From Cliona cf. orientalis (lineage: Eukaryota; Porifera; Demospongiae; Clionaida; Clionaidae): a stretch of DNA of 64,000 nucleotides. The notes beneath the pieces are model-generated. The model did not search any database. It had not been told where the DNA came from and saw only the letters and a program-made list of their open reading frames with translations. Below, piece by piece: positions 1,474 to 62,387 of the stretch. The stretch is taken from contig OZ005689.1 in the NCBI GenBank assembly GCA_963930775.1, positions 1,364,001 to 1,428,000 on the forward strand. The letters are read 5' to 3'. Numbering within the stretch: position 1 is the first letter of the stretch; every line of letters starts with the position of its first letter. Made by a program: the position numbers and the translations under genes.

Positions 1474-1526
1474 CTAGGTCAGGAAATGTTCTACTGTATG
1501 ACATGAAGCAATAGTTGTGGACTTAC

Positions 1527-2315
1527 TATAAACTTATGCCTTTCTCTTTAGCAGCTTCTTCAAGAGCTTCTCTTCCTTCGTCAGTAATGGCGTTGTTCAT
1601 GAGGCTGTGGGTGGAAGGAGAGGCCGACCGCCATGACACACTAACTCACCTAGCTAGTCTAGTAAGCAGACAACATTATTAGCTAGGTCAACTTACTTCA
1701 ACTGCTTAAGATTAGCCATTGTCTTGATGGCGTCGGATAGGGCCTTGGCTCCTTCATCGCTGATGGAGTTGGCAAAGAGGCTATGAGTGGAAGGAGAAAG
1801 GAAGATACTGACCGCCATGACGCACTAACTCACCTAGCAAGTCTAGTAAGTAGACAACATTGTATAGCTATAGGTCAACTTACTCTAACGTCTTAAGATT
1901 AGCCATTGTCTTGATGGCGTGGGACAGGGCCTTGGCTCCTTCAGCGCCGATGTAGTTGCGGACGAGGCTGTGAGTGGAAGGAGAGAGGAAGACACCAACC
2001 GCCATGACACACTAACTCACCTAGCTAGTCTAGTAAGTAGACAATATTATTGTAGCTAGGTCAACTTACCTCAACGTCTTAAGATTAGCCATTGTCTTGA
2101 TGGCATCGGACAGGACCTTGGCTCCTTCATCGCTGATGGAGTTGTCAGTGAGGCTGTGAGTGGAAGGAGAGGCCAACTGCCATGACACACTAACTCACCT
2201 AGCTAGTCTTATTGTAGCTAGGTCAACTTACCTCAATTCCTGAAGATTAGCCATTGTCGTGATGGCGTTGGACAGGACCTTGGCTCCTTCAGCGCTGATG
2301 GAGTTGCTACTGAGG
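1527..2315 (-). CDS. NLR-A LRR exon array (5 exons)
   Basis: Five exons each encode one leucine-rich repeat of the NLRC type: 2315-2232, 2153-2070, 1967-1884 and 1780-1697 (84 nt each), and a divergent terminal one at 1604-1527 (78 nt). The second full unit reads LTDNSISDEGAKVLSDAIK, then TMANLKTL. All exons are phase 2 and can be gained or lost without frame change. Introns of about 80-105 bp also repeat (CTAACTCACCTAGCTAGTCT), so the duplicating unit was exon plus intron, roughly 190 bp. LRRs usually form the ligand-sensing surface of NLRs. Confidence 0.88.
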
Positions 2316-3412: not shown

Positions 3413-5115
3413 TCAAGATATTCAAGGTCATATCTTTTATCCTTCCTGAATAAAGTCTTGCACCCATCAGGACCCATGGAACAGCCATTTAGGTACACTT
3501 TGAATTGTCTACAATGGGTGAGAAAGAAGCCAACGGACAGACAGTCTGCTGGACTGAGGCTGATATTCACTAGACCTGTCAGCCCCTCTTTGAGTTCCTT
3601 GGCTACCAGCTGACACAGAGTCTCGTCTTGAGCTTCAAAGAGACAGTGTAGCAATGAGAGAAGAAGCGGTTGGGATTTGTGGCCCAAGCTGGAGCCACCA
3701 GAATTCAGATCAGAGCTGGTACCAGAATGAGGTGTTAATTCTGTTACTTTACTGTCTAGCATACACTTCTGTACAACTAAGATAACAATTTCATCCATTC
3801 CTTGTGTTTTAAGTTTAGTTTTGGCGGCATAAAACTGGAACACAGCGCTAAAGCGAGCCCGACCAAAGAGTTCTTTGAACTGTGCCACCTGCTCACTCGG
3901 ATCCATCTTGGTAGCCATGTGAATGGCTGCCAATAGTTCTTGTATGGAGAGATGGAGGAAGTTGTAGGAGTGTGACGGCATTCCACTAGCAAAGCATTCT
4001 ACTCCCTGAAGTAAACCAAGAGTGTTGAAAGTGCGTTCAAGCTCAAAGGTTATGTGCATGGTCTTCTATCACTCCCTTGTATGCTATCTCACAAATACGT
4101 TCAAACTGATTTTGAATGGCAGTTGGAAGCTTATCAAGTGACTTTATTCCAGGTACATCGAGTTGCTCCTTTTTCTTTTTCAGATGCCGAAATATGCAAT
4201 TACGGGTAAGTGCAGAGAAAATGCCAAATTGAGTATGTGGAAGTACACTATCACACTTGAAAAGGTGGACTAGTATGCTGGCGTTCAAAGGCAAGTAGCA
4301 GCTGCCTTCTACAACTGGGTTTTCTTTGATTCTTTGCTGCAGTTCCTTGACCTTGCCATGATCATTTTCCAGGCATCCAGTAAAGTACTTTTGTAGTTCA
4401 GCTTTTGTGAACCCCAAGATTTCAATTCGAGTGTTAACAAGCTTATGAAGATTCATTGACGAGATGGGGCGAGATGTGATGATCACAGAGCTTTTGTGTA
4501 GCCGTTTGCAGTCTAGTATATCTTTGATGATGGAATGGCCTGGTGCTTTCTCTGGTAACTCATCCCAGCCATCAAAAATGAAGAGAACACCTTCTCCATC
4601 ACAAGCAGTTATCATTTTCTCTGCATTTTGTCCCATTGTATTATCTCGTTTGGGTAACAAATCAGCTATGCTCTTGGCATCTTGAACTACTGCTTCACGC
4701 AATTTCACCAGTATGACTTGACTGTATTCTTTCAAAAATCGATCAGCTATCCACTTGTGGCAAATGTGCAGAGAGAGGGTACTTTTTCCACATCCTGGGG
4801 CTCCTTCGATCAATATTTTCTTTTGTTCAAGTTTTTTAAAGATTTGTTCAAGTGTGATTGGAATTTTTCTTCGTAGAATATCATCGATCTTGCCTGTAAT
4901 AGTCTCACGTATGAAATGATCATCAATATTTCTTCGCTGTACTTTTTCAGGCATGATCATTGCCAAATTAAACACTTTATCAGTTACCAGAGGAGGCCAG
5001 TTGTCATCGCCACTGAAGCTAGCTTGAGTCTTGGCTTTGTAGAGTGATTTCAAGTATGCAGTATACTCTTCTAATTTGTTATCAGTGTCTTCAATCTTCA
5101 TATCATCAGCTACAG
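3413..5115 (-). pseudogene. NLR-A NACHT exon, 4-bp insertion
   Basis: This large exon encodes the NACHT NTPase. The Walker A motif is GAPGCGKST, the Walker B region is LFIFDGWDEL, and an ITSRP sensor motif follows. Helical winged-helix and superhelical regions lie downstream (FNTLGLLQG, YNFLHLSIQELLAAIH). Reading stops at GVIEDHAHNL because of four extra bases, TGCA, near 4055-4058 that NLR-B lacks. The rest of the exon stays open in the shifted frame to the donor GA|GTACGT at 3413. The lack of other damage suggests a recent lesion, an allele or a sequence error. Confidence 0.88.
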
Positions 5116-5355: not shown

Positions 5356-5607
5356 CTGCTGCATTTGAGACAAGCTTAGATTGAAGAGCTACTTTCATAA
5401 TTTCTCGAGTTGGTCTTGGATTGTTTCTGAGCCAGTACTTAATCATTTCTTGAAGACAGTCGTTAACCTTTCTGCAGTCTTTCTCAATTGCATCAAGTGT
5501 ACCAGTGTCCACACACAACTCGATACCTATTGACTTCCATCTGGCACGATAGTCCCACATCTCATCAAGCACTTCTTTTATATTGTTAATACTGAGAAGA
5601 TCGGCAT
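5356..5607 (-). CDS. NLR-A second Death-like domain exon
   Basis: A 252-nt exon, phase 1 at both ends, encodes a six-helix Death-fold domain of about 84 residues. Visible signatures are the W and L pattern of RWKSIGIELCVDTGTLDAI and EMIKYWLRNNPRPT. Such domains make homotypic contacts with adaptor proteins. NLR-B has the counterpart at 42447-42707. Whether it belongs to the Death or DED subfamily cannot be settled by eye. Confidence 0.8.
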
Positions 5608-5822: not shown

Positions 5823-5858
5823 CTTCATCAGTGCATATTCTCTTCGCTTTATTTTCAA
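5823..5858 (-). CDS. NLR-A linker mini-exon
   Basis: A 36-nt exon flanked by acceptor CTAAATAG and donor GTAAGC, phase 1 at both ends, encodes VENKAKRICTDE. It sits where NLR-B has a 60-nt linker exon (42768-42827). It joins the two Death domains. Support comes from splice sites, phase and position. Confidence 0.55.
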
Positions 5859-7607: not shown

Positions 7608-7907
7608 CTGCCGGATGATTCAATGCTATTTGTTTGGCCAGCTCCTGATTATTTCCACCACTCCTTTTGTTGACGGCTTCCACCAGCATCCGCCATGTGG
7701 GTGGACCAAATCTCTCTACATTGTACTCTCTTTTAAGCCATAGAAGCAATACATCATTAAGTGCTTGCTCATGACCAGATTCATTGGAACAGTCTTTACG
7801 AATAGCTCCTATGTCATCATTTCGTAATCTCAATGATCGACCAAGGGCAAAGTACATTGATTTAATGTCCAATACTTCTTCTATGACATCAGTCAAATCG
7901 TCTTCAT
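7608..7907 (-). CDS. NLR-A first Death-domain exon
   Basis: A 300-nt exon, phase 1 at both ends, encodes DEDDLTDVIEEVLDIKSMY and then a Death domain. The clearest helices are FALGRSLRLRNDDIGAIRKD, NDVLLLWLKREYNVERFGPP and TWRMLVEAVNKRSGGNNQEL. The WRMLVEAV block is typical of Death-domain helix 5. NLR-B has the same exon at 43243-43533. It follows directly on the 2A exon, so this domain should lie near the N-terminus of the downstream product. Confidence 0.85.
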
Positions 7908-9892: not shown

Positions 9893-10037
9893 ATAACAGT
9901 ATTATTATGATTATTGCAGCTTCAAATCACTTACTTAGTATTTGACTGTCATCAACACTCTTGTAATCAAGGTCTGCTGAAATGTAATAGCACATGCATG
10001 GTAGTAGAGTTCTTTGATCCTTGAATGTTTGAAATAC

Positions 10038-10283
10038 CTCCAACAGGTCCAGGGTTCTCCTCGACATCTCCAGATATCAGCAGTAGAGATAAGATGACAG
10101 AAGCAGCTACCGATAATGCAACATCCAGCACCGCTTTTGCCACAGCCAACACCCAAGTCCCCTGGAGCTTGGCCATGATCACAACTTCTACTTTAGTATC
10201 AGCATAATGTGGCTTCTCCTCCTTATTGGCCACGGCTTTCCATAGAACACTCAAAGATCTCGGACAGTCCACTGTCTCTATGA
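10038..10283 (-). CDS. NLR-A exon with membrane helix and 2A ribosome-skipping motif
   Basis: A 246-nt exon, phase 1 at both ends (acceptor TGCATTCAG, donor GAG|GTATTT), encodes about 82 residues. It starts VIETVDC and contains a long hydrophobic helix (AVLDVALSVAASVILSLLLI). It ends with GDVEENPGP followed by VG and a split codon. D-V/I-E-x-N-P-G-P is the canonical 2A signature: the ribosome fails to join the last G and P, releases the upstream chain and continues. The exon thus ends the membrane product and starts the NLR product. The motif is identical in NLR-B, although the flanks have changed. 2A-like motifs at the N-terminus of NLR-type proteins have been reported in sea urchin; I rely on memory for that. 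Confidence 0.88.
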
Positions 10284-10394
10284 CTGAATGCATATAAGTA
10301 GATGTGAAGATTTTAATGAATCATGCATACATACGTAACTATATCATTTTATCATGTTACACTGGCATTATGTTATAGTCTATGTGTGTGCTGA

Positions 10395-10515
10395 GTGCAG
10401 TACGTGATTTACAGCACGAGAGGAGTGGTCGAGTGGCTGATAAAGCATGAGGCAAAGCCGAGTGCTTTATCATACACGAGACCACTCCTCGAGTGCTGTA
10501 AATCGCGTACTGCAC
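10395..10515. repeat. 121-bp palindrome
   Basis: GTGCAGTACGTGATTTACAG at the left end is mirrored by CTGTAAATCGCGTACTGCAC at the right end. The arms meet near 10450 (TGATAAAGCA/TGCTTTATCA). It lies in the intron upstream of the 2A exon and would form a strong hairpin in DNA or pre-mRNA. Confidence 0.85.
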
Positions 10516-11365
10516 GACCAAGCGCACGCATTAACTGGCTTATTGTATGACACTCTGATGTGGATCACCATGACAGCCTACTGGTAAGTTTACATACAGG
10601 GCCTCTTGCATACCCGTTGTCATTGTACAATTTATTTTTGTGAAAAACGGTCAAACAAAGCTTTATTTTCAAAAGTAGCAAGGTATACGTACGTAGGGTT
10701 TCCACACAAAAAACTGAAGTTTTTCAAAACTTCTCAAAACTCTGGTAGGATGAAGATGTTCTTGGACTGACACTAATTTTCACTCCAGGTCACGCCCCCA
10801 CGTTCATTTGCCGAGATATCGAGACTTTAATTATTCTCCAAATTTTGGCAAAATTCGCCAAAACGTGGGGTACCATCGTTATACAGTATGGTAAACGCTT
10901 CCTCATGCTGTCACTGGATGAGGACGATCAATTTAGTAAGGCAGCCACAATAAATCACAGGTTGGAGCATATTAACCATCTGGCGCGACAATTTCGCCAA
11001 AGAACGCCAAATTTTTGTATCTCCACGTAAGAGTAATTTTGCACAGTATCATTCGAGATTTAGGGACCGTCCCAGTAGACTAGCTAAATGCCGCAAAATG
11101 AGCGGCTTTTGGAAAGTTTGATTTTTTCATTGGATACCCTAACGTACGCAGATCAGTGCTCTCTGACTTGGACAGTTTGTAGGTAGCTAGCTCTAGTAGC
11201 TAAATCTTAGTCTAACACAAAAAGTACTGACCTTTGTCAATTTGAAAGCTTCTCTGTGACAACTGTTCAGTCTAGAAGTTAGTCTGAACAGTATCAAGGT
11301 GAATATTTGTTTCTTCATGTGCTTTTAGACTTTCAAAAACTTAAATTTCTACTATAAAGCTCGCT

Positions 11366-11419
11366 AGCGTGCTTTATGGCCAATATTGTCCGTACAATAT
11401 TGGCCATATTGAGCACGCT
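11366..11419. repeat. Hairpin AGCGTGC...GCACGCT
   Basis: TGGCCAATATTGT and ACAATATTGGCCA flank a 4-base loop, with outer AGCGTGC and GCACGCT pairing. It lies in an NLR-A intron. Confidence 0.8.
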
Positions 11420-11517
11420 CTACGTGTACCGGATATAAAGTACAGGCGGTGCCTTTGATGTTATATGGCTTCATACAATATTCAAACATGCAGAGCACTC
11501 CCCATAGCTATAGCTAC

Positions 11518-11805
11518 CTGAGAGGATCAGCCAGTGGACTGGATGCTTTGACGGGTTAATTATTTTCAGGAACAGGAAGATTGAGGAGTAAACAAAGCAA
11601 GTTCTAAAAGAGAGGCTCTCTGATAAATCACTACTGATACCAGCTTTTGATCTTTTGATGGCCATGGATAATAATTGGTAGACCAGAGCAGAGGTAATCT
11701 CAAGGATCAGGGTGAGAACGAAGCAAAGATTGATCAAATACATTCTGTCAGGGAAGATATCACGTTTGGAAAAGTCTGCAAGAAATGCACACACCACTGA
11801 ACTGA
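11518..11805 (-). CDS. NLR-A membrane-module exon 2
   Basis: A 288-nt exon, phase 1 at both ends, encodes about 96 residues. Hydrophobic segments are YLINLCFVLTLILEITSALV and CFVYSSIFLFLKI. A basic loop (MAIKRSKAG) lies between them. NLR-B has an exon of exactly the same length at 45251-45538. I do not recognise the family. The spacing of hydrophobic segments loosely recalls the C-terminal membrane part of a ligand-gated channel, but this is only a visual impression. Frame and phase place it upstream of the 2A motif in the same transcript. Confidence 0.72.
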
Positions 11806-11865
11806 CTGTAAGGCATGCAGACATTGTGACAAGCTAAAAATTATAATATTGATCATACCACTTAC

Positions 11866-12085
11866 TCAATAATGGGAGATGATGTCCCCTTGCTACTAAA
11901 GTGCGCAGCCCAAGATTGACTCCAATTGACATTATCAGCAGAAAAAATGTTGTTACTTCTTGACTAAGTGTCAAACCTCTGTGAGTCTTTCCTCTAAATG
12001 GTGACCTCATCTTGAATGGCCGGCCCAGGGCACACCATGAAGACCCAATGCGGGCTCTCCACTCTCCAATGCTCCAATATGGCAT
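11866..12085 (-). CDS. NLR-A membrane-module exon 1, proposed start
   Basis: The proposed start codon at 12085 begins MPYWSIGEWRARIGSSW. A basic stretch (RPFKMRSPFRGKTHRG) follows, then a hydrophobic segment (VTTFFLLIMSIGVNLGL). The exon ends TTG A|GTAAGT, phase 1. An in-frame TGA lies a few codons upstream of the open frame in NLR-B. ATG at this point gives a whole-gene frame that closes correctly in NLR-B, which supports it. A spliced 5' exon joining at the CAG just upstream is the alternative. Confidence 0.6.
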
Positions 12086-16680: not shown

Positions 16681-16775
16681 ACGTTACTAAATACTTGAAG
16701 GGTCTTACTTATTGAGCATGGATGTAGTAAGCATCAAACAACTTTATTTAGAACGTTTCGGTTGTACCACGTAGC

Positions 16776-17345
16776 TACTTCGAGTTTCAAGAGGAGTTTT
16801 ATGAACAGGTGGATGGAGCTGCTATGGGATCACCCCTTTCCCCAGTGATTGCCAATATCTTCATGGAAGGTTTTGAACAGGAAGCCCTCAACACTGCTGC
16901 TGACCAACCATTGCTATGGGTGCGCTATGTGGACGACACCTTTGTCATTTGGCCACATGGACCGGACAAACTTGAGAACTTCCACAGCCACCTGAACAGC
17001 CTCCGCAGGTCCATCCAGTTCACGGTTGAGAAGAAAGACAACAACCGACTGCCTTTTCTAGATGTGCTGGCAATGAAGGAAGGGAATCATGTGAAGACGT
17101 CCATCTACAGGAAACCAACACATACAGATCAGTACCTACACTTTGAATCGTACCACCATCCGAGGATCAAGAGTGGAATAATGACATACTTAAGGACAAG
17201 AGCTGAGAGGGTATGCAAGGGAGCTAATGTTGCTGAAGAGAAAGAGCATCTATGTAAGGTGTTTATAGCCAATGGTTATCCAGAGGAAATGACCAGGAAG
17301 TCTCTCAACAATCATGCAAGAGTCAAGAACAAGAAAGATGAAGAT
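16776..17345 (+). pseudogene. Penelope RT, central part
   Basis: The frame begins YFEFQEEFYEQVDGAAMGSP and shows RT motifs GAAMGSPLSPVIANIFMEGF, RYVDDTFVIW (catalytic DD) and LPFLDVLA. It ends HARVKNKKDED at the left target duplication of the 17346 element. RT motifs 1-2 are missing upstream. Confidence 0.85.
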
Positions 17346-24090: not shown

Positions 24091-24796
24091 GTAAGTCAAA
24101 TGCATCAAATGGTGATTTAATAAACAAATTGGATGCTAACCTTGACCAAGATAAATGCCATAACAACTTATGTGTACCTGATGAAGCATTAGCTTGTGAA
24201 CTACCGAAAAGGAAAAAGGATACAACAGTTCAGGAGAGTATGTTAAAAGCCAGGGTGACATTGCAAAACTTAAAAACCCTTAGCTACACTTTTCCTGATA
24301 AGGATGTTAGCTTAGCAGAAGAATTCACCCAGCAACTTGATGAACTCTATCGATCATTTTATTCACGGCTTCCAAATGAAGCAGGATTAATAATTCTCCC
24401 ACAAACTCAGGACTCAATCCGTTCAACTAAAAAAAGGGAACACACACAAACAGAAACATAGAATGTGCAAATCTACCACCCAGGAAGAAATATAAAAAAA
24501 GTGTGGACAGTAGATTTGGCATTAAGGCTGATAGGCTACGAAAGGACACAGACAAGTCAAAGGTATGTTCAAATTAACCCCACCTTCACTATGCTTTCAC
24601 TGATGCTACATATACAGCTAGAAGTTGAGGAAGTAAAAACATCGAAAAAGACTAAGAAGGGTTCTACAGCAAGAAAAAAACTAGAATCCAGTGATGCAAT
24701 GGAGCAATCTAGGGCTGAAATATCTAAAGGTATATAATATATACATGTACATTCTTTCATAAAATACCTGCTTCTTTGCTATACATTATACATAGG

Positions 24797-25035
24797 TTTG
24801 AAGAGAAGAGCAAGATGTGGCAAGTGTGATGCATGCAAACGCCAAGACTGTGGAAAATGTGTGAATTGCTTAGACAAGAAAAAGTTCAGTGGCCAAGGAC
24901 GTAAAAAACAGTGTTGTGTTGAGAGAAAGTGCAAAAATCTCACTGACAGGTTGTTACCCCCTGACAAAGCACAACTACTAGATGGCGAATTCCAACAAGA
25001 AGTTGATGATACTGCCCCAGGTATAATACACAGAC
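24797..25035 (+). CDS. CXXC zinc-finger exon
   Basis: The residues RRARCGKCDACKRQDCGKC, then VNCLDKKKFSGQGRKKQCC and VERKC, contain the CxxCxxC...CxxCxxC...C...C pattern and a KFxGxGRKKQ core of CXXC domains. Such fingers bind unmethylated CpG (KDM2, CXXC1, MLL, DNMT1). No cysteine appears to be missing. The exon follows acceptor TTATACATAG. Confidence 0.85.
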
Positions 25036-25308
25036 GAGTATGTACTACATGCAATGTTTCACATATAAATTACAATACTAGGATCTCCAGCTACTGTGAG
25101 TTTGGATGACACTCTAACGAAGCTGAAAGGTGTGACACACAATAATTAGCACATTGAGTACACCTTGATTACATGCAGATATGAGACCACCTGGCCCTCA
25201 TTATAAGGAACACAATAAGAAAGTAACAAAGGAGCAGTTCCTTAGGGTATGTGATATACACGCAATATTCTATACACGTATAATTTCATAACAAATTAAT
25301 TCTCATAG

Positions 25309-25972
25309 GCCATTTCCTACATTTGTCAAATTAAACCCCTCAATTTGTGACACCCCCTTATCAAAGGAAGACGTCAAAATGCTCAATCTTCCAACATCAA
25401 GAGTACAGAAACCAACAGATAATACGTCCACTTCTAAGGGAAATCTAGCCGAATTTCTTTCAAAATCAGGGAGAAAGGTTAGACATACACTTCCGGATGG
25501 AAACTGTTTATTCCGTTCCCTGTCTGTTAATCTTTATAATAACGAAGATCAACACGTACTCATCAGAAAGATTCTTGTTCAGTTTGAGGAGTTAAATAAG
25601 GAAAAATTTGCTAAATATTTAACTGCTTCTGATGCTACTAATATCAACGATCACATCTGTAGTATGGTAAAGCCATTTGTCTGGGGGACACAGGTTGAAC
25701 TGTTGGCAGCTAGTTCCTTTTTTCAAGTCCCAGTCTACTACTGTCAAGCATTCCAAGGTACATACTGATGGCACATGCTTGGGCCAGTAAGTGCAACACA
25801 AAACCTAAGGTACCCAGCTAATGCAGACTCTTTGAGAATTCAAGTAAAGCACTTTGAGTTGATGTACCAGACTGGAGTGCACTATGACAGTATTGTAGAC
25901 AAAAGTACAAACAGAGTTTCAACCACTCCACCCTCTTTGAGTGTATCTACAATCTACGTGGAAATACAATAA
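25309..25972 (+). pseudogene. OTU cysteine-protease domain with in-frame TGA
   Basis: The exon opens PFPTFVKLNPSICDTPLSKE. The catalytic Cys motif is LPDGNCLFRSLSVNLY; WGTQVELLAASSFFQVPVYY is the second OTU block. The catalytic His lies in ELMYQTGVHYDSIVD. Between them, TGA at 25766-25768 interrupts the frame, which resumes without shift. Both catalytic segments look intact, so the stop is the only visible defect here. Confidence 0.8.
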
Positions 25973-30438: not shown

Positions 30439-30578
30439 CCTTGCTTAAGCTTCCCACCAGCTTGTTCCCAAGGGCTTGGTAGCTCAATTGGTAGAGCATC
30501 ACACCGGAGATGTGAGTGCGTGGGTTCGATCTCCACTCAAGTACTGAGATTATCTTTTCCCGGGAAGAAAATCTTGGG
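30439..30578 (+). mobile_element. 140-bp tRNA-derived SINE
   Basis: ACTTGTATAC flanks the insert at 30429-30438 and 30579-30588. Inside, 30472-30541 resembles a tRNA: A box TGGTAGCTCAATTGGTAGAG, anticodon stem TCACA/TGTGA with loop CCGGAGA, and B box GGGTTCGATCTCC. The acceptor stem pairs poorly and loop position 33 is C, so it is a tRNA-like SINE head and not a working tRNA. Confidence 0.65.
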
Positions 30579-38032: not shown

Positions 38033-41000
38033 CTAGGTCAGGAAATGTTCTACTGTACATGAAAACAACAGTTGTGAACTTACTATAACTGTATGTCTTT
38101 CTCTTTAGCAGCTTCTTTAAGAGCTCTTCTTCCTTCGTCTGTAATGGCAGAGTTGTTGTAGAGGCTGTGAATGAAAGGAGAGGCTGACCGCTATGACACT
38201 AACTCACCTAGCTAGTCTAGTACGTAGACAACATTATTGTAGCTAGGTCAACTTACTACAACACCTTAAGATTAGCCATTATCTTGATGACGTCAGACAG
38301 GACCTTGGTTCCTTCATCACCGATGGAATTGTCACTGAGGCTGTGAGTGGAAGGAGAGAGGTAGTCACCGACCGCCATGACACACTAACTCACCTAGCTA
38401 GTCTAGTAAGTACTAGACAACACTGTTGTAGCTAGGTCAACTTACCTCAATGTCTCAAGACTAGCCATTGTCTTGATGGCATCTGACAGGGCCTTGGCTC
38501 CTTCATCGCCGATGGAGTTGTTGTGGAGGCTGTGAGTGGAAGGAGAGAGGAAGACACCGGCCACCATGACACACTAACTCACGTAGCTAGCCTAGTAAGC
38601 AGACAACATTATTGTAGCTAGGTCAACTTACTGCAACTCCTTAAGATTAGCCGTTGACTTGATGGCGTCAGACAGGGCCTTGGCTCCTTCATCGCCGATG
38701 GAGTTGGTCTCGAGGCTGTGAGTGGAAGGAGAGAGGAAGACACCGACCACCATGACACACTAACTTACCTAGTAAGTAGACAATATTATTGTAGCTACGT
38801 CAACTTACTGCAACTCCTTAAGATTACCCATTGTCTTGATGGCGTCGGACAGGGCCTTGGCTCCTTCATCGCCGATGGAGTTGTTCTCGAGCCTGTGAGT
38901 GGAAGGAGAGAGGAAGACACCGACCGCCATGACACACTAACTCACCTAGCTAGCCTGGTGAGTAGACAACATTATTGTAGCTACTCTTTAGCTATTAATT
39001 ATACTAAGTAGGTAACTAGCATTAAGTGTAGGTTTCTATTAATGTCTATTAATGTTGTTATTGTTAATGAAAAACAATTTAAAGAAATTTTAATCTTATC
39101 ACCATGGCAACAATAGTGAGCAAATAATGAATGATTGTACTTTGGCAAGGTACAAGTTGTGGTAAAGTTCGATGATGTCATGGCAACCATATTAATTACC
39201 GGATGTTATTAAAGTTAATTAACACCAATTGGTAGCAGCTGTATTTCACCAAAGGCTAGCTATTGCCTTTGGCTGTATGGCGGTTTAAAAAAGAAACTCG
39301 AAGCTGTTGGCAGATCCAGTTTATAGGCTACTTTCAAATTAAAATTAAATTCGTCTGCTTGCTGTGGAGGGTAGGCTACTAGCTGTCAACGTGTTGTTAG
39401 AAAGGAGCGGTGTTATATACCTGAAACCCACTCTCAACTTAGAAAATTTCAAGGGTATAAGGGGGAAAAAATCAACAAATACAGCGAGGATCGAACTGCA
39501 GTCTATGACTCCATACGCCAGAGCCCTAGCCACTACACCACTGTGAATGCCGCTGCCAGTTGCTCTTTTGTGATCTTGACAAACTTATAGACAGTAGTAC
39601 GTAGTACTAACCCTTGTGTATCAAACACTACCCTAAACCCAAACCCTACCTGACCTTAGCTGTTCACATATTGTGCGATTTATCCCAGCCCCCTATAGGG
39701 GCTGGGCCGTGCGCCTATGGCGCGCGGATTTTGGGTACATAACGGGATTTGTTAGAAAGTATATGACGCCCTTTCCACAAAGGCTACGTAATAGAAGTTA
39801 AACACAGATTTTACAATAGGCTCTGAAGGTAATAAGCCTAAGGCTTTCAGTAGAGTGCGAGTGGTAAATTGCACCAGCAGGAAATCTTGAACCGTTAGGA
39901 TATAAAGCAAGGAGTTCGGATAACGTTGACTACACCCACGAAATCGATCATGCATGCAAAAACGTATATATGACCGATTTATCGAGTATTTTGACGATTT
40001 TAATCTCATTCTCGATTGATAGAACACTTACCTTGCGTTTTTTTCACTTCATTGAGTGTTAGAACTAGATTTGATAGCAGCGCAGCAGCTGGTTCTCGCT
40101 TCACAGCTACGCGACGTAGGTTTACTGCGCGTGCGCAAGCCGATCACGTGGTCACAATGTGTACTTTGACCCTGCATTTTCTTTGCATACCGAGTTCGGA
40201 TAATCAAGGGTTCGGTTGGACTGCACCATTTTCCTTGTATATGCTCGAGCCTGTCTACTCAGTACAGTACGTATCACACAGAACTTTAGCTGCACCAACT
40301 ACTTTTGCTTTTTACTTGCAAAATAAACAATACTGGCTCCGTAAACGTGCAGCTGCCAGAAATTAAACTTCCCACCGCGTACGTAACATCAAATTTGATT
40401 GGCCAACTGCAACACCAGCTAGCCCCACCCAACTAATGATGCACAATTCCAGCTACACCCACCGCGCGCATAGAGGAGAGTCTAGTTCGCCAGACTATAG
40501 ACTAGCACTAAATTCACGTACTCAAGATATTCAAGGTCATATCTTTTATCCTTCCTGAATAAAGCCTTGCACCCATCAGCACCCATGGAACAGCCTATTA
40601 AGTGCACTTTGAATAGTCTACAATGGGTGAGAAAGTAGCCCACGGACAGACAATCTGCTGGACTGAGGCTGATGAACCGTAGACTTCCCAGCTCCTCTTT
40701 GAGTTTCTCAGCTACCAGCTGACACAGAATCTTATCTTGAGCTTCAAAGAGACAGTGTAGCAATGAGAGAAGAAGCGGTTGGGATTTGTGGCCCAAGCTG
40801 GAGCCATCTGAATCCAGATCAGGGTTGGTACCAGAATGTGGTGTTAATTCTGTTACTTTACTGTCTCGCATACACTTTTGTACAACTAACGTAACAATTT
40901 CATCCATTCCTTGTGCTTTAAGCTTAGTTTTGGCGGCATAAAACTGGAACACAGCGCTAAAGCGAGCCTGACCAAAGAGTTCCTTGAATTGTGCCACCTG

Positions 41001-44000
41001 CTCACTCGGATCCATCTTGGTAGCCATGTGAATGGCCGCCAACAGTTCTTGTATGGAGAGATGGAGGAAGTTGTAGGAGTGTGATGGCATTCCACTAGCA
41101 AAACTTTCTACTCCCTGAAGTAAACCAAGAGTGTTGAAACTGCATTCAAGGTCAAAGGTTACGTGGTCTTCTATCACTCCCTTGTATGCTATCTCACAAA
41201 TATGTTCAAACTGATTTTGAATGGTAGTTGGAAGCCTATCAAGTGACCTTATTCCAGGTACATCAAGTTGCTCCTTCTTCTTTTTCAGATGCCGAAATAT
41301 GCAGTTACGGGTAAGTGCAGAGAAAATGCCAAATTGAGTATGTGGAAGTACACCATCACACTTAAAAAGGTGGACCAGGATGCTGGCATTCAAAGGTAAG
41401 TAGCAGCTTCCTTCTACAACTGGGATTTCTTTGATTCTTTGCTGCAATTCCTTGACCTTGCCATGATCATCTCCCAGGCATCCAGTAAAGTACTTCTGCA
41501 GTTCAGCTTTTGTGAACCCCAAGATTTCAATTCGAGTTTCTACAAGCTCGTGAAGATTCATTGACGAGATGGGGCGAGACGTGATGACCACAGAGCTTTT
41601 GTGTAGTTTTTTGCAGGTTAGTATGTCTCTGATGATGGAATGGCCTGGTACTTTTTCTGGTAGCTCGTCCCAGCCATCAAAAATGAAGAGAATACCTTCT
41701 CCATCACAAGCAGTTATCTCTTTCTCTACATGTTGTCCCATTGTTCGGTTGCGTTTTGGTAACAAATCAGCTATGCTCTTGGCATTTTGAATTATTTCTT
41801 CACGTAATTTTACCAGTATGACTTGACTATACTCTTTCAATAATTGACCAGCTACCCACTCATGGCAAATATGCAGAGAGAGAGTGCTTTTTCCACATCC
41901 TGGGGTGCCTTCGATCAATATTTTCTTTTGTTCAGCTTTTGCACAGATTTGTTTGAGTGTGATGGGAACCTTTCTTTGTAGAATATCATCGATTTTGCCC
42001 GTAATAGTCTCACGTGTGAAATGATCATCAATATTTCTTCGCTGCACTTGTTCTGGCATGATCATTGCCAAATTAAACACTTTGTCAGTTACTGAAGGAG
42101 GCCAGTGATCATCATCACTGAAGCTAGCGTGAGTCTTGGCTTTGTAGAGTGATTTCAAGTATGCAGTAAACTCTTCTAACTTGTCATCGGATTCTGTGAC
42201 TTCAGACTTTCTATCTTCAGCTGTAGAATCTAATATAAGAACATGCATGCAGGTATTGAACAGGCAGAAATTTCATCTTGTAAACATTTACGATTGTGAA
42301 TCAGATATCATCAGATTCTTTAAAACTAGTCATTAGTTGTAAGCTATTAACACACGTACTGCCTCTTGCATGCCACAGAATCAGCTAAGCACATTGACTC
42401 ACTATAGTATACAGTTCATAATAATAGGCTAAGCTTGCTAAATTACCTGCTGCATTTGAGACAAGCTTAGATCGAAGAGCTGCTTTGATAGTTTCTCGAG
42501 TTGGTCTTGGACTATTTCTGAGCCAGTCAGTAATCATCCTTAAAAGGCACTCATTAACCGTTTTGCAGTCTTTCTCAATTGCATCAAGTGTACCAGTGTC
42601 AATGCATAACTGGATTCCAATAAATTTCCATCTGGCACGATAGTCCCACATCTCATCAAGCACTTCTTTTATGTTCTTGTTAATATTGAGGACATCTGCA
42701 TCCGATTCTACTATTCAAACTAGGTATGATAATAATATCTCAAAGTATACTGCTTCAAGATGCTCACCTTCAGTGTCACATGCTTTTGGCTTAATTTCCT
42801 CCTGAAGGGATGCAGTCAAACTTCCTGCTATAATGTTAATATGCATTGTACGGCAGTGTACTAAATATTAAATTACAGACTATGGTACATTCTAAATACT
42901 GACAGGTTCAAAAGCAGTAGGGATGTATCTGGTCAGTTTATGAACATTTCTACAACTACCACTTTTTTGAAGATGGAATGCAAGAATAACTAGTTTAAAA
43001 CTGGTCACTTTCTTGGCCTGTGTATACAGGCTGCCTAATTCCCCTCTATTTTTGAACAAAAAAGTGTAATTTTAAGTTGTGAGTGACATATTGGTAAAAA
43101 AATTATGAGGCTGTCACGTAAATTTATCCACTGTGACATTTCCAAATGCAATGCCCGATGCATTACCAATTATTATTATTGTATTTAATCGCATGCAGGC
43201 ACACATTTGATACAATCCAAATAATTAATATTATTATGCCACCTGCTGGATGATTTAAAGCAATTTGTTTGGCCAGCTCGTGATTGTCCCCACCACTCTT
43301 TCTGTCGACAGCTTCCACCAGCATCCGCCATGTGGGTGGACCATGTTTTTTCTTGTCATACTTTTGATTAAGCCACAGGAGCAATACATCTTCGAGACCA
43401 TCAGAATCACTGGGATGTTCATCACGAATCTTTCGCAAGTCTGCTATTTTCAAATTCAGTGATCGACCAAGATTGTAGTACCTTGATTCTAAGGGCAGTA
43501 TCTCCTCAATGATTTTGAATAGATCATCTTCGTCTAGGATGAGCAAATTAATTCCTCAAAATCATGCAGTTATTGCATAAATTATTAATAACTTACTCAA
43601 TTCTGCCATATCAATGGAATCAAAATTAATATCTATATGAACAGACATTAATATTAGTATGCATGACATATGATATCAGAAGCACATGAAGAGAAGGAGC
43701 GTACATCTAGAAATTATCGAAAAATAAAGTAAATCGTATCAATATCTTGTGATAGCCTCAATGAATAAGTCTATCTACACCTAGAGATAATTGTAGTGGG
43801 TGCTACACTATACCAAGAATAGTATGTAATGTGCCATGAATACTGTAACCACAAGTTAGTGGTAAAAACTAATGTTCAACACTTCCTATTATATGGCAGT
43901 TTTCTACCTTGCCAATCATAAAATATGTCGTCATTTTTGCTACTCCCATTACTAGTCACATCATTTGAATTACGGAAGTTTAGTCAAAATGTTTCTTAGC

Positions 44001-45796
44001 AGGAATCAGTGTTGCTTTATTTTTCGATATTACCACTGTATATACATAGCTATGTGACTTATACGCTCCTTCTCTTCATGTGCTCCTGGTGATATATATT
44101 ATATGTGACCGGCTATGAGAAAAGGGGCCATTGGGGATTTTTTAATTTTTGATGTGGATTGATAGCCCAATGCGTGCTAAATCCAATGGTGCAAGTTTCA
44201 AACAAAAACATTGATCACAAGTGGAGTTATGGCCATTTTTATGCACTCGGGTAGATACATTCGTTTTTCGGAAAACACGCATTTTTAATTAAATTTTGTA
44301 TTAATTTGCATGTATCCGAGCTAATATTTGTGCCCGTAACTACAGTTCACATGTTCCAACTATATAAACATAATATATCAATATGAAGCAAAAAAGTTAC
44401 ATTTTCTAATGGACTAAGAAACAGAAAATTGAGAAATCTTCATTTTTTCCACATTTTAGCCATTATTAGAAAATGAAAATTTATCTCCAATGGTCCCTTT
44501 TCTCATATAGCAGGTCACAAATATTATCTGGCTATAAATTTCTTTTATATATCGTCAAGCAATGTAACATAATTATACCTCCAACAGGTCCAGGGTTTTC
44601 CTCAACATCTCCAGATATCAGCAGTAGAGATAAGATGACAGAAGCAGCTACCGATAACGCAACATCCAGCACTGCTTTTACCACTGCCAGTACCCAAGTC
44701 CTGTTGAGCTTGGTCATGATCACAACTTCTACTTTAGTATCAGCATAATGCAGCTTCTCCACCAGGTCCTGCTTATTGGCCAGGGCTTTCCATAGAACAC
44801 TCAAAGATATCAGACAGTCCACTGTCTGTATGACTGAATGCATAATTATTATGAATGATTACCACTGCTCTAGTAGCTTCATTGTATATGGTAAAGGGTC
44901 ACTATGTATGTAAGTAGCATACATGTTGTGTAATGTTATGTAATCGTCAAATGCTTTAAAGTGGCATAACTTGAAAATGAAAACAGATGACAAACTTCAG
45001 TTAAAGCATTTATAGAACCACTTTCCATATTCACCTGTAGCTATCTTTACCAAATTTCACGATTCGATACCCTTATGACGTTTACTGTTTCGGAAAAGTA
45101 AAGTTTTACTAGGGATGTAATTATTAATTTTAAATTATAGATTTTGTCATGTATTAGTATAAATAAGTTATAATGGCGCCGGCATTATGTACATGTATGT
45201 ATGTTGTGTACATTCAAACATGCAGAGCACTCCCCCACAGCTATAGCTACCTGAGAGGGTCAGCCAGTGGACTGGATGCATTGACGGATTAATCATTTTC
45301 AGAATCAGGAAGATTGAATAGTAAACAAAGTAAGTTGTGAAGGAAAGGCTCTCTGATAATACACTACTGACACCAGCTTTTGGTCTTTTGATGGCCATGG
45401 ATAATAATTGGTAGACTAGAGCAGAGGTAATCTGAAGGATCAGGGTGAGAACGAAACCAAGATTGATCAAATACATTCTGTCAGGGACGGTACCACGTTT
45501 GGAAAAGTCTGCAAGAAATGCATACACCATTGAACTGACTATAAGGATAAATTAATGTGGAAATTCTACCACTTACTCAATAGTGGGAGATGATGTCCCC
45601 TTGTTACAAAAGTGTGTAGCCCATGATTGACTCCAATTAACATTATCAGCAGAAAAACCGTTGCTACTCCTTGACTCAGTGTCAAACCTCTGTGAGTCTT
45701 TCCTCTAAATGGTGACCTCATCTTGAATGGCCGGCCCAGGGCACACCATGAAGACCCAATGCGGGCTCTCCACTCTCCAATGCTCCAATATGGCAT
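37960..45796 (-). CDS. NLR-B: membrane module-2A-Death-Death-NACHT-LRR polyprotein gene
   Basis: Proposed exons in transcription order: 45796-45577, 45538-45251, 44833-44579, 43632-43597, 43533-43243, 42827-42768, 42707-42447, 42229-40522, 38892-38809, 38715-38632, 38529-38446, 38340-38257, 38164-38084, 38032-37960. They total 3,609 nt, an intact frame of about 1,202 aa. A 2A motif at about residue 250 should split translation into a multi-pass membrane protein and a Death-Death-NACHT-LRR sensor of about 950 aa. All exons up to NACHT are phase 1 at both ends. Known NLRs sense microbes or damage and recruit adaptors through Death-fold domains. The model rests on splice signals, phase and the paralogue; upstream exons cannot be excluded. 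Confidence 0.85.
38084..38892 (-). CDS. NLR-B LRR exon array (5 exons)
   Basis: Four 84-nt exons (38892-38809, 38715-38632, 38529-38446, 38340-38257) and a terminal 81-nt exon (38164-38084) each encode one LRR, for example LENNSIGDEGAKALSDAIK. All are phase 2. The first joins NACHT to give YLELENNS, in register with the LRR consensus. Introns between them are near-identical repeats of about 100 bp. The consensus asparagine and the GAxxLSDAI core are kept in the full units. Confidence 0.88.
39405..39748 (-). mobile_element. 344-bp insertion with tRNA-like promoter, 11-bp target duplication
   Basis: TTGTTAGAAAG lies at 39394-39404 and 39749-39759, and once only in the NLR-A intron near 2789. 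On the minus strand about 39545-39472 resembles a tRNA (AGTGGTGTAGTGGCTAGGG, then GCAGTTCGATCCTCGC). The tRNA-like part is internal, about 200 bases from the element's right end, which is unusual for a SINE head. Confidence 0.7.
40522..42229 (-). CDS. NLR-B NACHT exon
   Basis: A single 1,708-nt exon (phase 1 in, phase 2 out) encodes the NTPase that powers NLR oligomerisation. Walker A is EGTPGCGKSTLSLHICHEW, Walker B is GILFIFDGWDELPE, and VVITSRPISSMNLH is the sensor region. Winged-helix and helical segments follow (RNCIFRHLKKKKEQLDVPG, YNFLHLSIQELLAAIHMATK). The frame is open throughout, unlike that of NLR-A. The donor GA|GTACGT at 40522 leads into the LRR exons. Confidence 0.92.
42447..42707 (-). 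CDS. NLR-B second Death-like domain exon
   Basis: A 261-nt exon, phase 1 at both ends, encodes EVLDEMWDYRARWKFIGIQL, TGTLDAIEKDCKTVNECLL and MITDWLRNSPRPTRETIKAA. It is the counterpart of 5356-5607, with changes spread over the exon. Confidence 0.82.
42768..42827 (-). CDS. NLR-B linker exon
   Basis: A 60-nt exon (acceptor ACATTATAG, donor GTGAGC), phase 1 at both ends, encodes GSLTASLQEEIKPKACDTE between the two Death domains. Confidence 0.6.
43243..43533 (-). CDS. NLR-B first Death-domain exon
   Basis: A 291-nt exon, phase 1 at both ends, encodes DEDDLFKIIEEILPLESRYY, NLGRSLNLKIADLRKIRDE, LEDVLLLWLNQKYDKKKHGP and TWRMLVEAVDRKSGGDNHEL. The last block is almost unchanged from NLR-A, whereas helices 2-3 differ strongly, a pattern fitting changed partner binding. 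Confidence 0.86.
43597..43632 (-). CDS. NLR-B mini-exon after the 2A exon
   Basis: A 36-nt exon (acceptor GTTCATATAG, donor A|GTAAG), phase 1 at both ends, encodes INFDSIDMAEL. No NLR-A counterpart was seen. Leaving it out keeps the frame, so it could be optional. Confidence 0.5.
   Translation of the reverse strand: MLILIPLIWQN
43678..44519. mobile_element. Two foldback MITEs in the intron after the 2A exon
   Basis: The first spans about 43678-44090; AGCACATGAAGAGAAGGAGC is inverted at its right end. The second spans about 44104-44519; TGTGACCGGCTATGAGAAAA is inverted as TTTTCTCATATAGCAGGTCA. No coding frames are seen. Confidence 0.65.
44579..44833 (-). CDS. NLR-B exon with membrane helix and 2A ribosome-skipping motif
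   Basis: A 255-nt exon, phase 1 at both ends, encodes VIQTVDCLISLSVLWKALAN, a basic stretch and LNRTWVLAVVKAVLDVALS. It then runs through the hydrophobic helix into LLLISGDVEENPGPVG. All eight 2A consensus positions are present. Compared with NLR-A the first half has substitutions and a 3-residue indel, while the last 35 residues are essentially unchanged. The predicted break is between G and P, three residues before the exon end. The helix just before the break could anchor the upstream product or act as a signal sequence. Confidence 0.9.
45251..45538 (-). CDS. NLR-B membrane-module exon 2
   Basis: A 288-nt exon with hydrophobic segments YLINLGFVLTLILQITSALV and YFVYYSIFLILKMI. It has the same length and phase as 11805-11518 in NLR-A. 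The family is not recognised. In-frame splicing connects it to the 2A exon. Confidence 0.72.
45577..45796 (-). CDS. NLR-B membrane-module exon 1, proposed start
   Basis: ATG at 45796 opens MPYWSIGEWRARIGSSWC. LTLSQGVATVFLLIMLIGVN is the hydrophobic segment. From this ATG the summed exons give an uninterrupted frame to the final TAG. A stop lies in frame a few codons upstream. Confidence 0.62.
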
Positions 45797-46093: not shown

Positions 46094-46339
46094 TGTAGTG
46101 TATTGCATGCACTTGTATCACATTACATCATTTGTTTATGTTATCATTTATTCATGCACTTTACACTTACGTTCTTTTGTGTCACATGCACTTTGCGCCC
46201 ACCGCCAGGTTCTAGACAAAGCTCTTTTGTTCATGCTTTCTGGCCGTTTCGGTATACCATGTATTGTATGTATATTATACTGAATGCTGAATGTGCACAA
46301 TAATAATATCTTTGAAAGCCAATCGTTTGAGATATTACA
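46094..46339 (+). repeat. Gypsy left LTR
   Basis: It starts TGTAGTGTATTGCATG and ends GAGATATTACA, with the same ends and length as 50395-50640. Confidence 0.93.
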
Positions 46340-46360
46340 CTGGCGACGAGACGGGATCAA
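46340..46360 (+). other. Gypsy primer-binding site
   Basis: CTGGCGACGAGACGGGATCA begins one base after the LTR; TGG matches a tRNA 3' CCA. The primer tRNA was not identified. Confidence 0.7.
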
Positions 46361-46365
46361 GGCAC

Positions 46366-47274
46366 ATGGCCACCGTCACCTACGGAACAATTAATGAATT
46401 CGATCCCACCGCTGAGACGATCTCGGCTTACCTCGAACGGTTGCAACTCTACTTCGAGGCGAATGACGTCGCGAATGCAAAGAAAGTCTCCGTTTTGCTC
46501 ACGGTTATCGGACCCAAGGTCTATACGCTGTTGAGGGGGCTACTTGCTCCAACCTTGCCAAAAGAGAAAGGCTACAAAGAGTTGGAAAAAGTGCTCAAGG
46601 AACATTATGAGCCCAAACCTTTGGTGATTGCCGAACGGTTCCACTTTTACAAGCGGGGACAAGCTGCAGGAGAGTCTCTTGCAGACTACCAGGCTGAGCT
46701 ACGACGCTTGGCGAGGACCTGTGATTTTGGCAGTTTTCTAAGTGAAGTCTTACGTGACCGATTCGTGGTCGGAATGAAGAGCGAGAGCATCCAGAAACGG
46801 TTATTGTCTGAAGACAAGCTTACCCTTGCCAAAGCACTGGAAATAGGCCAGGGTATGGAGGCTGCCGCCCGAAATGCGAAGGAGTTTAAGGAGCCTGCGT
46901 CTTCGGTGGTGATGCAGGTACACGCACCTAAACGCAAACCTTGTCATCGCTGTGGGCGCAACAATCATGATCAAAAAGATTGCAAGTTCCGTGAAGCCAA
47001 ATGCCACAACTGTGGCAAGACTGGGCACATAGCCCCAGTTTGCCGATCCGCAAAGAAACCACAGAATTCGAAGAAGCCTACTCGACCCAACAAGCCACAA
47101 ACGAAATTTGTTGGAGTTGAACCTGAGCCAGCTGAGGATGCCGACTTGTCAGCTGAGGAGGATCTTGCCTTATTCACTGTCGGTACGAGCTCCTCTACAC
47201 CAATCGAGGTGGAAGTCCACTTAATGATCAGCCGCTCATCATGGAATTGGATACGGGAGCTGACGTTTCGATAA
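46366..47274 (+). CDS. gag: Gypsy Gag
   Basis: About 302 residues start at MATVTYGTINEF, the ATG nearest the primer site; an upstream in-frame ATG lies in the LTR. A retrotransposon-type capsid region is followed by two CCHC knuckles (CHRCGRNNHDQKDC and CHNCGKTGHIAPVC). Gag forms the particle and binds the element RNA. Its 3' end overlaps pol, which is in the -1 frame. Confidence 0.9.
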   Translation: MATVTYGTINEFDPTAETISAYLERLQLYFEANDVANAKKVSVLLTVIGPKVYTLLRGLLAPTLPKEKGYKELEKVLKEHYEPKPLVIAERFHFYKRGQAAGESLADYQAELRRLARTCDFGSFLSEVLRDRFVVGMKSESIQKRLLSEDKLTLAKALEIGQGMEAAARNAKEFKEPASSVVMQVHAPKRKPCHRCGRNNHDQKDCKFREAKCHNCGKTGHIAPVCRSAKKPQNSKKPTRPNKPQTKFVGVEPEPAEDADLSAEEDLALFTVGTSSSTPIEVEVHLMISRSSWNWIRELTFR

Positions 47275-50200: not shown

Positions 50201-50300
50201 TGATCCCAGCGATACTTCACAGTTGTCAGCTGGAGAGTCTCGTGCTCCTAGGTCTCGTTATCCTACTCGTACTAGGAACCCGCCAGATAGACTGGCCTGA
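47241..50300 (+). CDS. pol: Gypsy Pol polyprotein
   Basis: From the first ATG the frame has 1,019 residues, but the true N-terminus is probably reached by a -1 frameshift from gag. Domains in order: aspartic protease (DTGAD at residues 4-8), RT (YIDDILVTG near residue 285), RNase H (ADASAYG near 432, TDHKPL near 501) and integrase. The integrase shows an HHCC zinc-binding region near 653-695 and a DDE core with D near 718, D near 770 and E near 804. The C-terminus ends RYPTRTRNPPDRLA. All catalytic motifs look intact. Confidence 0.93.
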   Translation: MELDTGADVSIISEKTYQSMLAQTQLQPLNVPLRTYTGERMKVLGKVSVTVQYEHNAPVDLPLVIVAGEGPSLFGRNWLKRIKLKWNKIGTVMLRDDAKQELSRLLECYQEIFSDELGTIQTFRAQLAVQENARPKFCKPRSVPLALKEAIEEELDRLERVGVLEKVAYSEWATPLVPVPKKDGRVRLCGDYKVTLNQALDVEQYPLPKPDDLFATLAGGDKFTVLDLSQAYQQLLLDDDSRQYVTVNTHRGLYHYTRLPYGVASAPAIFQRVMDTILQGLPNVLCYIDDILVTGSNDAEHLKNLKSVFERLQQYGLRLKKAKCVFLRPRVVYLGHQIDAEGLRATEEKLEAIQKAPSPKNVQELRSFLGLLNYYGKFIPNLASLIHPLNSLLHHDCQWKWSDECEAVFKEAKEKLLSSKVLVHYDPKLPIKVAADASAYGVGAVLSHVVDGTERPIAFASRTLTSSERNYAQVEKEALALIFAVKKFHIYLYGHEFTLITDHKPLTTILGPKKGIPPLAAARLQRWAILLSAYKYQIEFRSTTAHGNADCLSRLPLTNQSPEGLSSEPTIFNVSQIASLPVTAAQLQKATQDDPTMSKILCYTANGWPQEVDEVLLPYWRKRQELTSESGCLLWGIRVLVPDKLRAKLLEELHCDHPGICRMKSVARSYFWWPGVDKAIEELAKSCQSCQAVKQAPAAAPLHPWIWPTRPWQRVHLDFAGPFQGSMFLVAIDAHSKWPEVYAMSSTTAERTIEVLRHLFAAYGILEQVVTDNGPQFVAQEFATFMKGNGVKHIRTIPYHPASNGLAERFVQSFKQGLRASQNDGRLLNNRLSTFLLTYRSTPHATTGVPPCTLFLQRKLRTRFDLLKPSCEERVLEKQAQQKEQHDRRAKSREWHVGQSVMAKNLRPGPNWIPGVIIERAGPLSYVIQTEDKQTWRRHVDQLKALGDGVAIEANIEDSDVIYPPSTSVAVQENIEAAEPVNTEAETDPSDTSQLSAGESRAPRSRYPTRTRNPPDRLA

Positions 50301-61277: not shown

Positions 61278-61582
61278 TGATTTGTGCTATGCATGCTTTG
61301 TTCACATGGTTCTAGATTTTCTTTGCTGATGTTATTTCTTATTTAAGGCTGCTGCTCATCCTACAAGTTAGTTGTGTATTGTATACTGATCTATTAAAAG
61401 TGCTGCATCTATATAGCAGAGTCGCAGAAGCGCAAGCCACTGCGTTAGTTATCAGTTTTCAACAGGTTATGGGCCCAGTCATGCAAATCTACTAGTTTGA
61501 TCTAAACCCTGATCATTCAGAGGAGTTGAAAACTTCGAGTATTATTCGTCAAACTATTCGGTGTCGAAAATTGACACAAGCG

Positions 61583-62356
61583 ATGGCGGAATCAAAGACC
61601 GTAACAGTTGCTCCTTTGAACAGGTCGAACTATGCAACGTGGAAGGTGCAGTGTCGGATGGCCCTGATGAAAGATGGGCTATGGAGTATAGTGGACGGAT
61701 CAGAAGCATGCCCCAATCAAACGACGGAGGTTGCCAAGTACAAAAAGTTTGTTGAGAGAAAGGATCGTGCGCTGGCGATTATAGTGCTTTCTATGGATCC
61801 AGCCCTTCTGTATTTGATTGGAGATCCCAAAGTTCCAACTGAGGTGTGGAAGAAACTGTCTGATCAGTTTCAGAAAAAGACATGGGTTAACAAATTAGCT
61901 CTACGACATAAACTCTACTCATTGCGTTTGTGAAAAGGGGACGCTGTGCAGGAGCATATCAAGGAGATGACAGAATTATTCGATGAGTTGTCGGTAGTTG
62001 GAGATCCTGTTAGCGAAGAGGATCGTGTCGTGCATTTGTTAGCAAGTTTGCCTGAGTCATATAGCATGTTGGTGATGGCATTTGAGGCAAACGGTGACGT
62101 TCCGAAAATAGAAATCGTTACTGAACGCCTGCTACATGAGGAACGCAATCAAAAGGGACGTGCAGAGTCAGCTGATACGAATAGCATGGAGAAAGTTATG
62201 ACATCAGAACAGCGAATACAAAGGAAAGGAGTAAGGTGCCACTACTGCAAACTTATCGGTCACTTCAAACGTGATTGTTTTGAATTAGCAGCTGATAGAA
62301 AAGCCGAGTCAGAGAAGAAGAATAGCAGACAGAGTGCAATGAAATTGAAGAGATAG
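61583..62356 (+). pseudogene. Copia Gag
   Basis: It starts MAESKTVTVAPLNRSNYATW. A TGA at 61931 interrupts the UBN2-type Gag region, and reading resumes in frame (KGDAVQEHIKEMTELFDEL). A CCHC knuckle CHYCKLIGHFKRDC is present. The frame is lost near 62356. Confidence 0.85.
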
Positions 62357-62387
62357 CATTAGTTCAGAAAGTGAGAGTGTTGGATTA

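Follow-up and report, generated by a model that had tools for sequence, protein, structure and literature searches.

Introduction

Natural use of 2A/StopGo elements in cellular genes is described as rare (PMC12846837), and a described case close to the one reported here is that of sea-urchin SpNLR2A, for which the tabulated N-terminal 2A examples are 26 aa long, with others stated to fall inside the N-terminal region (Roulston et al. 2016, PMC4981915). NLRs that carry membrane segments have been described as well: those of sea anemones with three to five N-terminal transmembrane domains are presented as probably membrane-bound (PMC5094078), and sponge NLRs with transmembrane domains as putative membrane-bound receptors, with the first report credited to A. 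queenslandica (Yuen et al. 2014; PMC12909245). Amongst viral StopGo sequences, LLLLSG-like motifs are known; there are two L-rich motifs, motif 6 was active when assayed in vitro, and the L-rich motifs go with S at the x of ExNPGP (PMC12846837).

Here we describe two genes, NLR-A and NLR-B, in a 64 kb stretch of DNA (hereafter the window) from the sponge Cliona cf. orientalis. We read them as duplicated NLR genes whose exons 1-3 encode a hydrophobic, probably multi-pass region ending in a 2A/StopGo element, with split products predicted on either side of it; judging from sequence, we would put the probability of this reading at about 0.57.

How does this locus compare with what has been described? 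The likeness to SpNLR2A lies in a 2A placed right after a hydrophobic stretch and 5' of an NLR, with a possible partition between membrane or secretory pathway and cytosol (PMC4981915). However, where the tabulated sea-urchin examples are 26 aa long, 248 (NLR-A) or 251 (NLR-B) aa with several hydrophobic segments, encoded by three exons, precede the predicted break here, and the 2A of both genes falls beyond the 26-aa extreme N-terminus that characterises SpNLR2A. The anemone NLRs, compared by description only, share the clustering of hydrophobic segments N-terminal to NACHT-LRR (PMC5094078), and the sponge NLRs share the Death/NACHT/LRR make-up, with some genes close together and nearly identical and some with transmembrane domains (PMC12909245); no 2A figures in the description of either, whereas NLR-A and NLR-B have one. 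The viral elements have in common with ours the core DVEENPGP, the G preceding D and a leucine-rich hexapeptide, but they belong to viral polyproteins rather than to a chromosomal multi-exon immune gene, and their L-rich motifs have S at the x of ExNPGP where NLR-A and NLR-B have E, a small mismatch (PMC12846837). A 2A combined with a sponge or cnidarian NLR was not found in the open-access literature among the matches listed. Already in print, then, are sea-urchin NLRs bearing a 2A, and NLRs with membrane segments in anemones and sponges; what looks like a new form is a hydrophobic region of several segments that closes with a 2A before an NLR.

A 2A/StopGo motif shared by two NLR genes

The octamer DVEENPGP, which satisfies the core (D/G/C/N)(V/I)ExNPGP of the 2A/StopGo element, is found at 10068 and at 44609. 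Across all six frames of the window, the core (D/G/C/N)(V/I)ExNPG is present at these two positions only, and a third, bare NPGP at 21076 lacks it. We reject a chance origin of the motif, considering that base composition leads one to expect 2.8e-4 (about 0.0003) core octamers against the two observed, and that none arose in 200 Markov-1 simulations. With its preceding residues the element reads LLLISG-DVEENPGP, a canonical 2A/StopGo consensus that closes a phase-1 exon of NLR-A, where exon 3 reads ...SVILSLLLISGDVEENPG|PVG and the G/P break is predicted after NPG. The hexapeptide LLLISG fits the published, permissive LLLLSG-like class when compared by eye, and it is because of its leucine richness and the G before D that we liken the motif to that viral class.

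The 14 residues SLLLISGDVEENPG are the same in NLR-A and NLR-B despite two synonymous changes, a point that bears on whether these genes could simply encode plain membrane-bound NLRs, with a 2A of little strength, or one held back at the ER, and a main product in which the N-terminal membrane segments stay fused to the sensor. Some upstream sequences do inhibit 2A in the ER translocon, leaving mostly fused product in cells in spite of good cleavage in vitro (PMC2978324), and the three to five N-terminal membrane segments of anemone NLRs (PMC5094078), like the transmembrane domains of sponge NLRs (PMC12909245), offer a precedent for such proteins. An idle 2A, however, would not be expected to keep its full consensus in both copies, and we regard this alternative as distinctly unlikely.

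NLR-A: exons on either side of the 2A

The reading of split products takes the following exons of NLR-A as the region up to and just past the 2A:

11866 to 12085, minus strand: exon 1, 220 nt (73 aa), with ATG start, basic N-terminus and first hydrophobic segment; GT donor, phase 1
11518 to 11805, minus strand: exon 2, 288 nt, with the two main hydrophobic helices; AG/GT borders, phase 1-1
10038 to 10283, minus strand: exon 3, 246 nt, with a linker, the last hydrophobic segment and the 2A (LLLISGDVEENPGP); AG/GT borders, phase 1-1
9935 to 9976, minus strand: candidate mini-exon (linker), 42 nt, phase 1-1, canonical borders; NLR-B has a mini-exon of the same rank

Exons 1-3 have canonical GT/AG borders and phase-1 joins, and give 248 aa through NPG. 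The 42-nt mini-exon at 9976-9935 probably sits between exon 3 and the exon at 7907-7608, and the frame into the latter holds with or without it. The sensor side of NLR-A consists of:

7608 to 7907, minus strand: Death-like exon 1, 60% aa identity to NLR-B
5823 to 5858, minus strand: candidate mini-exon 2, phase 1-1, canonical borders
5356 to 5607, minus strand: Death-like exon 2, 80% aa identity to NLR-B; Pfam Death E=0.017, 15.7 bits, below cut-off
3413 to 5115, minus strand: NACHT exon, homologous to that of NLR-B but interrupted by an insertion of 4 nt
1526 to 2315, minus strand: LRR exons, namely three repeats of 84 nt that have standard donors, a further stretch resembling LRRs near 1779 and a last exon that stops at TAG

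The insertion, placed near 4058-4051 by comparison with NLR-B, leads to a TGA at 4045-4043, so that the frame past the 2A terminates within NACHT; the C-terminal LRR exons are present, but lie beyond the frameshift and out of frame. The preliminary description, which had the 2A-ending exon in phase with hydrophobic exons upstream and with Death-NACHT-LRR exons downstream, is borne out for the former and for the exon at 7907-7608, and breaks down in NLR-A for the continuation into the LRRs. Read in its own frame, the NACHT sequence beyond the frameshift has no stop in 211 codons and a Ka/Ks of 0.49 against NLR-B, which suggests that the frameshift is either recent or an assembly error. As assembled, NLR-A would produce no full sensor, and instead an upstream product plus a sensor cut off within the NACHT exon. 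NLR-B is therefore the better example of the two.

NLR-B: an intact paralogue

NLR-B (45796-38083, minus strand) is a second copy about 34 kb from NLR-A, on the same strand and with the identical 2A at the same exon position. Its exons are:

45577 to 45796, minus strand: exon 1, same borders as in NLR-A
45251 to 45538, minus strand: exon 2, same borders as in NLR-A
44579 to 44833, minus strand: exon 3, with the same 2A and a 9-nt in-frame length difference from NLR-A
43597 to 43632, minus strand: mini-exon 1, same rank as the NLR-A mini-exon
43243 to 43533, minus strand: Death-like exon 1, Pfam Death sub-threshold
42768 to 42824, minus strand: mini-exon 2
42447 to 42710, minus strand: Death-like exon 2
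40522 to 42229, minus strand: NACHT exon, intact, Pfam NACHT
38083 to 38892, minus strand: LRR exons, of which four are 84 nt long, followed by a last exon whose TAG closes the frame

The exon order through NACHT is that of NLR-A with matching phases, and the borders of exons 1-3 are also kept. Joined together, the 13 modelled exons read through as 1178 aa to a final TAG, with no internal stops; the 2A stands in frame between two coding regions, with 251 aa before the G/P break and 927 aa after. The 927-aa product matches Pfam NACHT (E=7.4e-21; 75.1 bits, cut-off 26.7) and LRR_6 (74.1 bits, cut-off 23.4), with its C-terminal LRRs in frame.

The Death domain named in the preliminary description could not be upheld under that name: matches to Pfam Death stay below the cut-off of 22.6 bits, and we term such sub-threshold domains Death-like. 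The first of them in NLR-B scores 20.1 bits as an exon, 22.3 within a 788-aa stretch and 21.6 within the 927-aa product, and its counterpart in NLR-A (7907-7608) has no Pfam match. For Death-like exon 2 of NLR-B there is no Death match in Pfam, and the AF2 model of the second Death-like domain (pLDDT 66) has no Foldseek match at E<=0.001, with none of the 49 listed titles naming a death-fold protein.

Start codons and the proposed joining of exons 1-3 to the sensor

Where might translation of the sensor begin? Within the first Death-like exon, neither copy offers an in-frame ATG ahead of the core (the first M is residue 17 in NLR-A and residue 70 in NLR-B), so that a start for the sensor has to be sought farther 5'. 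The open stretch immediately before this exon covers 6 or 9 codons and holds no ATG, and mini-exon 1 encodes no M in NLR-A and one in NLR-B. Exons 1-3 supply an upstream start codon in both copies, and we infer that they are spliced to the NLR exons.

An alternative is that exons 1-3 form a separate gene, or a leader that is not (or not always) joined to the NLR, with the sensor starting alone, for instance from within intron 3. Indeed, intron 3 of both copies offers in-frame ATGs whose frame stays open as far as the mini-exon, at 9995 in NLR-A and at 43648 and 43669 in NLR-B, which makes a 2A-free start of the sensor possible, and if intron 3 is retained, the frame of exon 3 stops soon after the 2A. 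Yet these ATGs add only a few codons, which show no evident similarity between the copies, and the mini-exons retain an acceptor site for which a start in intron 3 would have no need. The order of exons 1-3, mini-exon and Death-like exon is, moreover, kept with matching phase in both copies, and we hold a separately starting sensor to be very unlikely. NLR-A has one more ATG, at 10067, which falls within exon 3 but is read in a different frame.

Divergence and constraint between the copies

NLR-A and NLR-B lie within a larger duplication, the noncoding parts of which align in patches only, at about 77-95%. Five of the seven intron pairs give no alignment at E<=1e-3, one aligns over 39 columns at the border, and one, before NACHT, gives two partial alignments. 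Against this background, we discounted the 88-90% identity of the upstream exons as evidence, and turn to the distribution of gaps and substitutions.

The 508 nt of exons 1 and 2 align without a single gap opening, whereas the adjoining noncoding DNA has 16 over 264 nt (P=5e-8), and the 5' flank alone 6 over 166 nt (P=2e-4). Exons 1-3 have accumulated 57 substitutions but a single indel, of 9 nt and in frame; eight intergenic alignments, some of them perhaps of dispersed repeats and not of orthologous sites, show 27 gap openings with 60 substitutions (P=2e-6). On this evidence, the reading frame of the upstream exons is protected from indels, and by their frame these exons are protein-coding.

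Constraint on the encoded protein is another matter, being weak over the upstream region as a whole when the copies are compared: Ka/Ks is 0.55 (bootstrap 0.32-0.96), substitutions are spread 18/17/22 over codon positions 1/2/3, and a transition-corrected neutral test gives P=0.16-0.18 for amino-acid changes and P=0.034-0.039 once the absence of stops is included. By the same comparison, the one upstream part that is clearly constrained is the last hydrophobic segment with the 2A, where 40 codons carry eight substitutions, six of them in third position, and one amino-acid change against 5.0 expected (P=0.005, or about 0.025 after correction for the five regions tested). The first 42 codons differ by one silent change (P=0.17). 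Residues 43-169 look neutral or diversifying (P=0.65), as does the 5' portion of exon 3 (P=0.89), and exon 2 has 82% aa identity between the copies, with no indels. The NACHT exon before the frameshift, taken as a control, is strongly constrained, with 44 changes against 65 expected. The multi-segment upstream product of about 245 aa that had been proposed for NLR-A is matched by a hydrophobic frame of 248 aa; that it is an independent, functional membrane protein does not follow, as residues 43-169 evolve as if neutral.

This pattern is what one would look for if the working unit were the last hydrophobic segment plus the 2A, read from an ATG in exon 3 or carried at the end of a long leader, and dividing the NLR between secretory pathway and cytosol as in the sea urchin, with no separate functional membrane protein. 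Besides the confinement of clear constraint to that segment (P=0.005), exon 3 of each copy offers an in-frame start codon that lies 43 aa ahead of the break and has A at -3 (10176 in NLR-A, 44717 in NLR-B), and amongst the 26-aa N-terminal 2A sequences of the sea urchin one acts as both signal and recoding sequence (PMC4981915). On the other hand, both copies retain the exon 3 acceptor and, free of frameshifts, the whole of exons 1-2, and NLR-A and NLR-B do not differ in the first 42 residues that exon 1 encodes. We find this explanation rather unlikely, and continue to favour a longer, probably multi-pass region upstream of the 2A.

Synonymous divergence between the copies is uneven along the genes, with Ks of 0.12 in the upstream region, 0.25 in NACHT before the frameshift and 0.82 in the first Death-like domain, and gene conversion may for this reason have homogenised the upstream exons. 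A run of 151 nt, 12117-11967 in NLR-A, is identical in NLR-B, silent sites included: it begins 32 nt ahead of the start codon and reaches 119 nt into exon 1. In the rest of the upstream exons about 9% of sites differ. Such a run suggests either gene conversion or constraint at the nucleotide level. RNA structure was considered as its cause and rejected, the folding being unremarkable (z 0.18), as was a known RNA family, the only match in the window at the Rfam gathering threshold being a tRNA gene elsewhere. A very short upstream reading frame, ATG-ACT/ATT-GGT-GAC-TAA, is kept in both copies immediately before the start codons at 12085 and 45796.

Hydrophobicity and membrane topology

Segments were called on the octanol and Kyte-Doolittle scales. 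The octanol scale gives four segments N-terminal to NACHT in NLR-A and six in NLR-B, counts that are soft. Kyte-Doolittle peaks of at least 1.2 number six in NLR-A and five in NLR-B, and those of at least 1.6 three and four, respectively; shuffled sequences reach the observed count of the latter in 154 of 500 cases for NLR-A and 43 of 500 for NLR-B, so that an excess is not clear. The AF2 model of NLR-B exon 2, made from the single exon, has two long helices at low confidence (pLDDT 60), and in exon 1 of NLR-A both scales peak at aa 46-65. The upstream protein is hydrophobic and probably multi-pass. A hydrophobic, signal-like stretch lies just before the 2A, with a Kyte-Doolittle value of 2.53 at aa 221-239 (NLR-A) or 224-242 (NLR-B).

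Considering that the first 45 aa contain eight K/R against two (NLR-A) or one (NLR-B) D/E, the sequence suggests a cytosolic N-terminus for the upstream product. A layout with the N-terminus inside and four segments would place the 2A on the cytosolic side.

A possible route to two products

How could such a gene work? In the reading that we favour, the first hydrophobic segments would take the ribosome to the ER and insert into the membrane. By the time of skipping, the last segment would still be within the exit tunnel, since it ends a few residues before the core and the tunnel holds 30-40 aa (PMC2978324). With ...NPG in the P site, Pro would not be joined and a membrane-embedded product of about 250 aa would be let go, after which the ribosome would resume at Pro and go on to the Death-like/NACHT/LRR sensor, a cytosolic protein of 927 aa in NLR-B. 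Ribosomes that do form the G-P bond would yield a membrane-tethered sensor instead. The net effect would be one sensor shared between cytosol and membrane, plus a separate membrane product.

The idea that the two products are made in a fixed ratio, as had been proposed at the outset, sits uneasily with published work, which includes both uncleaved product and termination at 2A (PMC4981915), along with inhibition at the translocon (PMC2978324). Because some upstream sequences inhibit 2A in this way, our analysis would lead us to expect separated products together with a tethered fraction that varies.

We might go further, and picture a natural two-protein immune cassette, in which one ribosome at the ER surface makes both a multi-pass membrane protein that ends in a 2A tail and a cytosolic NLR, the failure of skipping sets the degree of tethering, and the state of translation or of the ER tunes where the sensor is placed. 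Perhaps some of the membrane-bound NLRs of sponges and anemones are alike, with their 2A overlooked. This wider picture is tentative, and we would sooner expect parts of it to fall than all of it to hold. If the reading that we favour is right, an animal is using 2A to place a single immune sensor in two compartments and, alongside it, to produce a membrane protein. Whether some NLRs described as membrane-bound are in fact split proteins becomes testable: an NPGP just before the first cytosolic domain is a simple test of whether those of early-branching animals are really bound.

Homologue searches and other features of the window

Searches for relatives of the upstream protein covered viral, prokaryotic, solved or curated collections, in which an absence says little on animals. 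With the NLR-B protein, no relatives were found in viral contigs (six pattern matches, none confirmed), in genome contigs (35 pattern matches, none confirmed) or amongst PDB sequences (one match, E 1.5). Pfam assigns no family to either copy, with Pox_A14 below cut-off for NLR-A (E=0.075) and nothing for NLR-B.

The window contains several other features, all on the plus strand:

16752 to 17345, plus strand: RVT_1 reverse transcriptase fragment, which we take to be Penelope-like
24738 to 25765, plus strand: CXXC zinc finger adjoining an OTU-like protease domain
30473 to 30544, plus strand: the tRNA gene mentioned above
46291 to 50300, plus strand: LTR retrotransposon gag and pol (zinc knuckle, RT, RNase H, integrase), 5' of NLR-B
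57814 to 58119, plus strand: TNP-like RNase H C-terminal domain, probably from a transposase
61496 to 63346, plus strand: copia-type gag and a piece of integrase core
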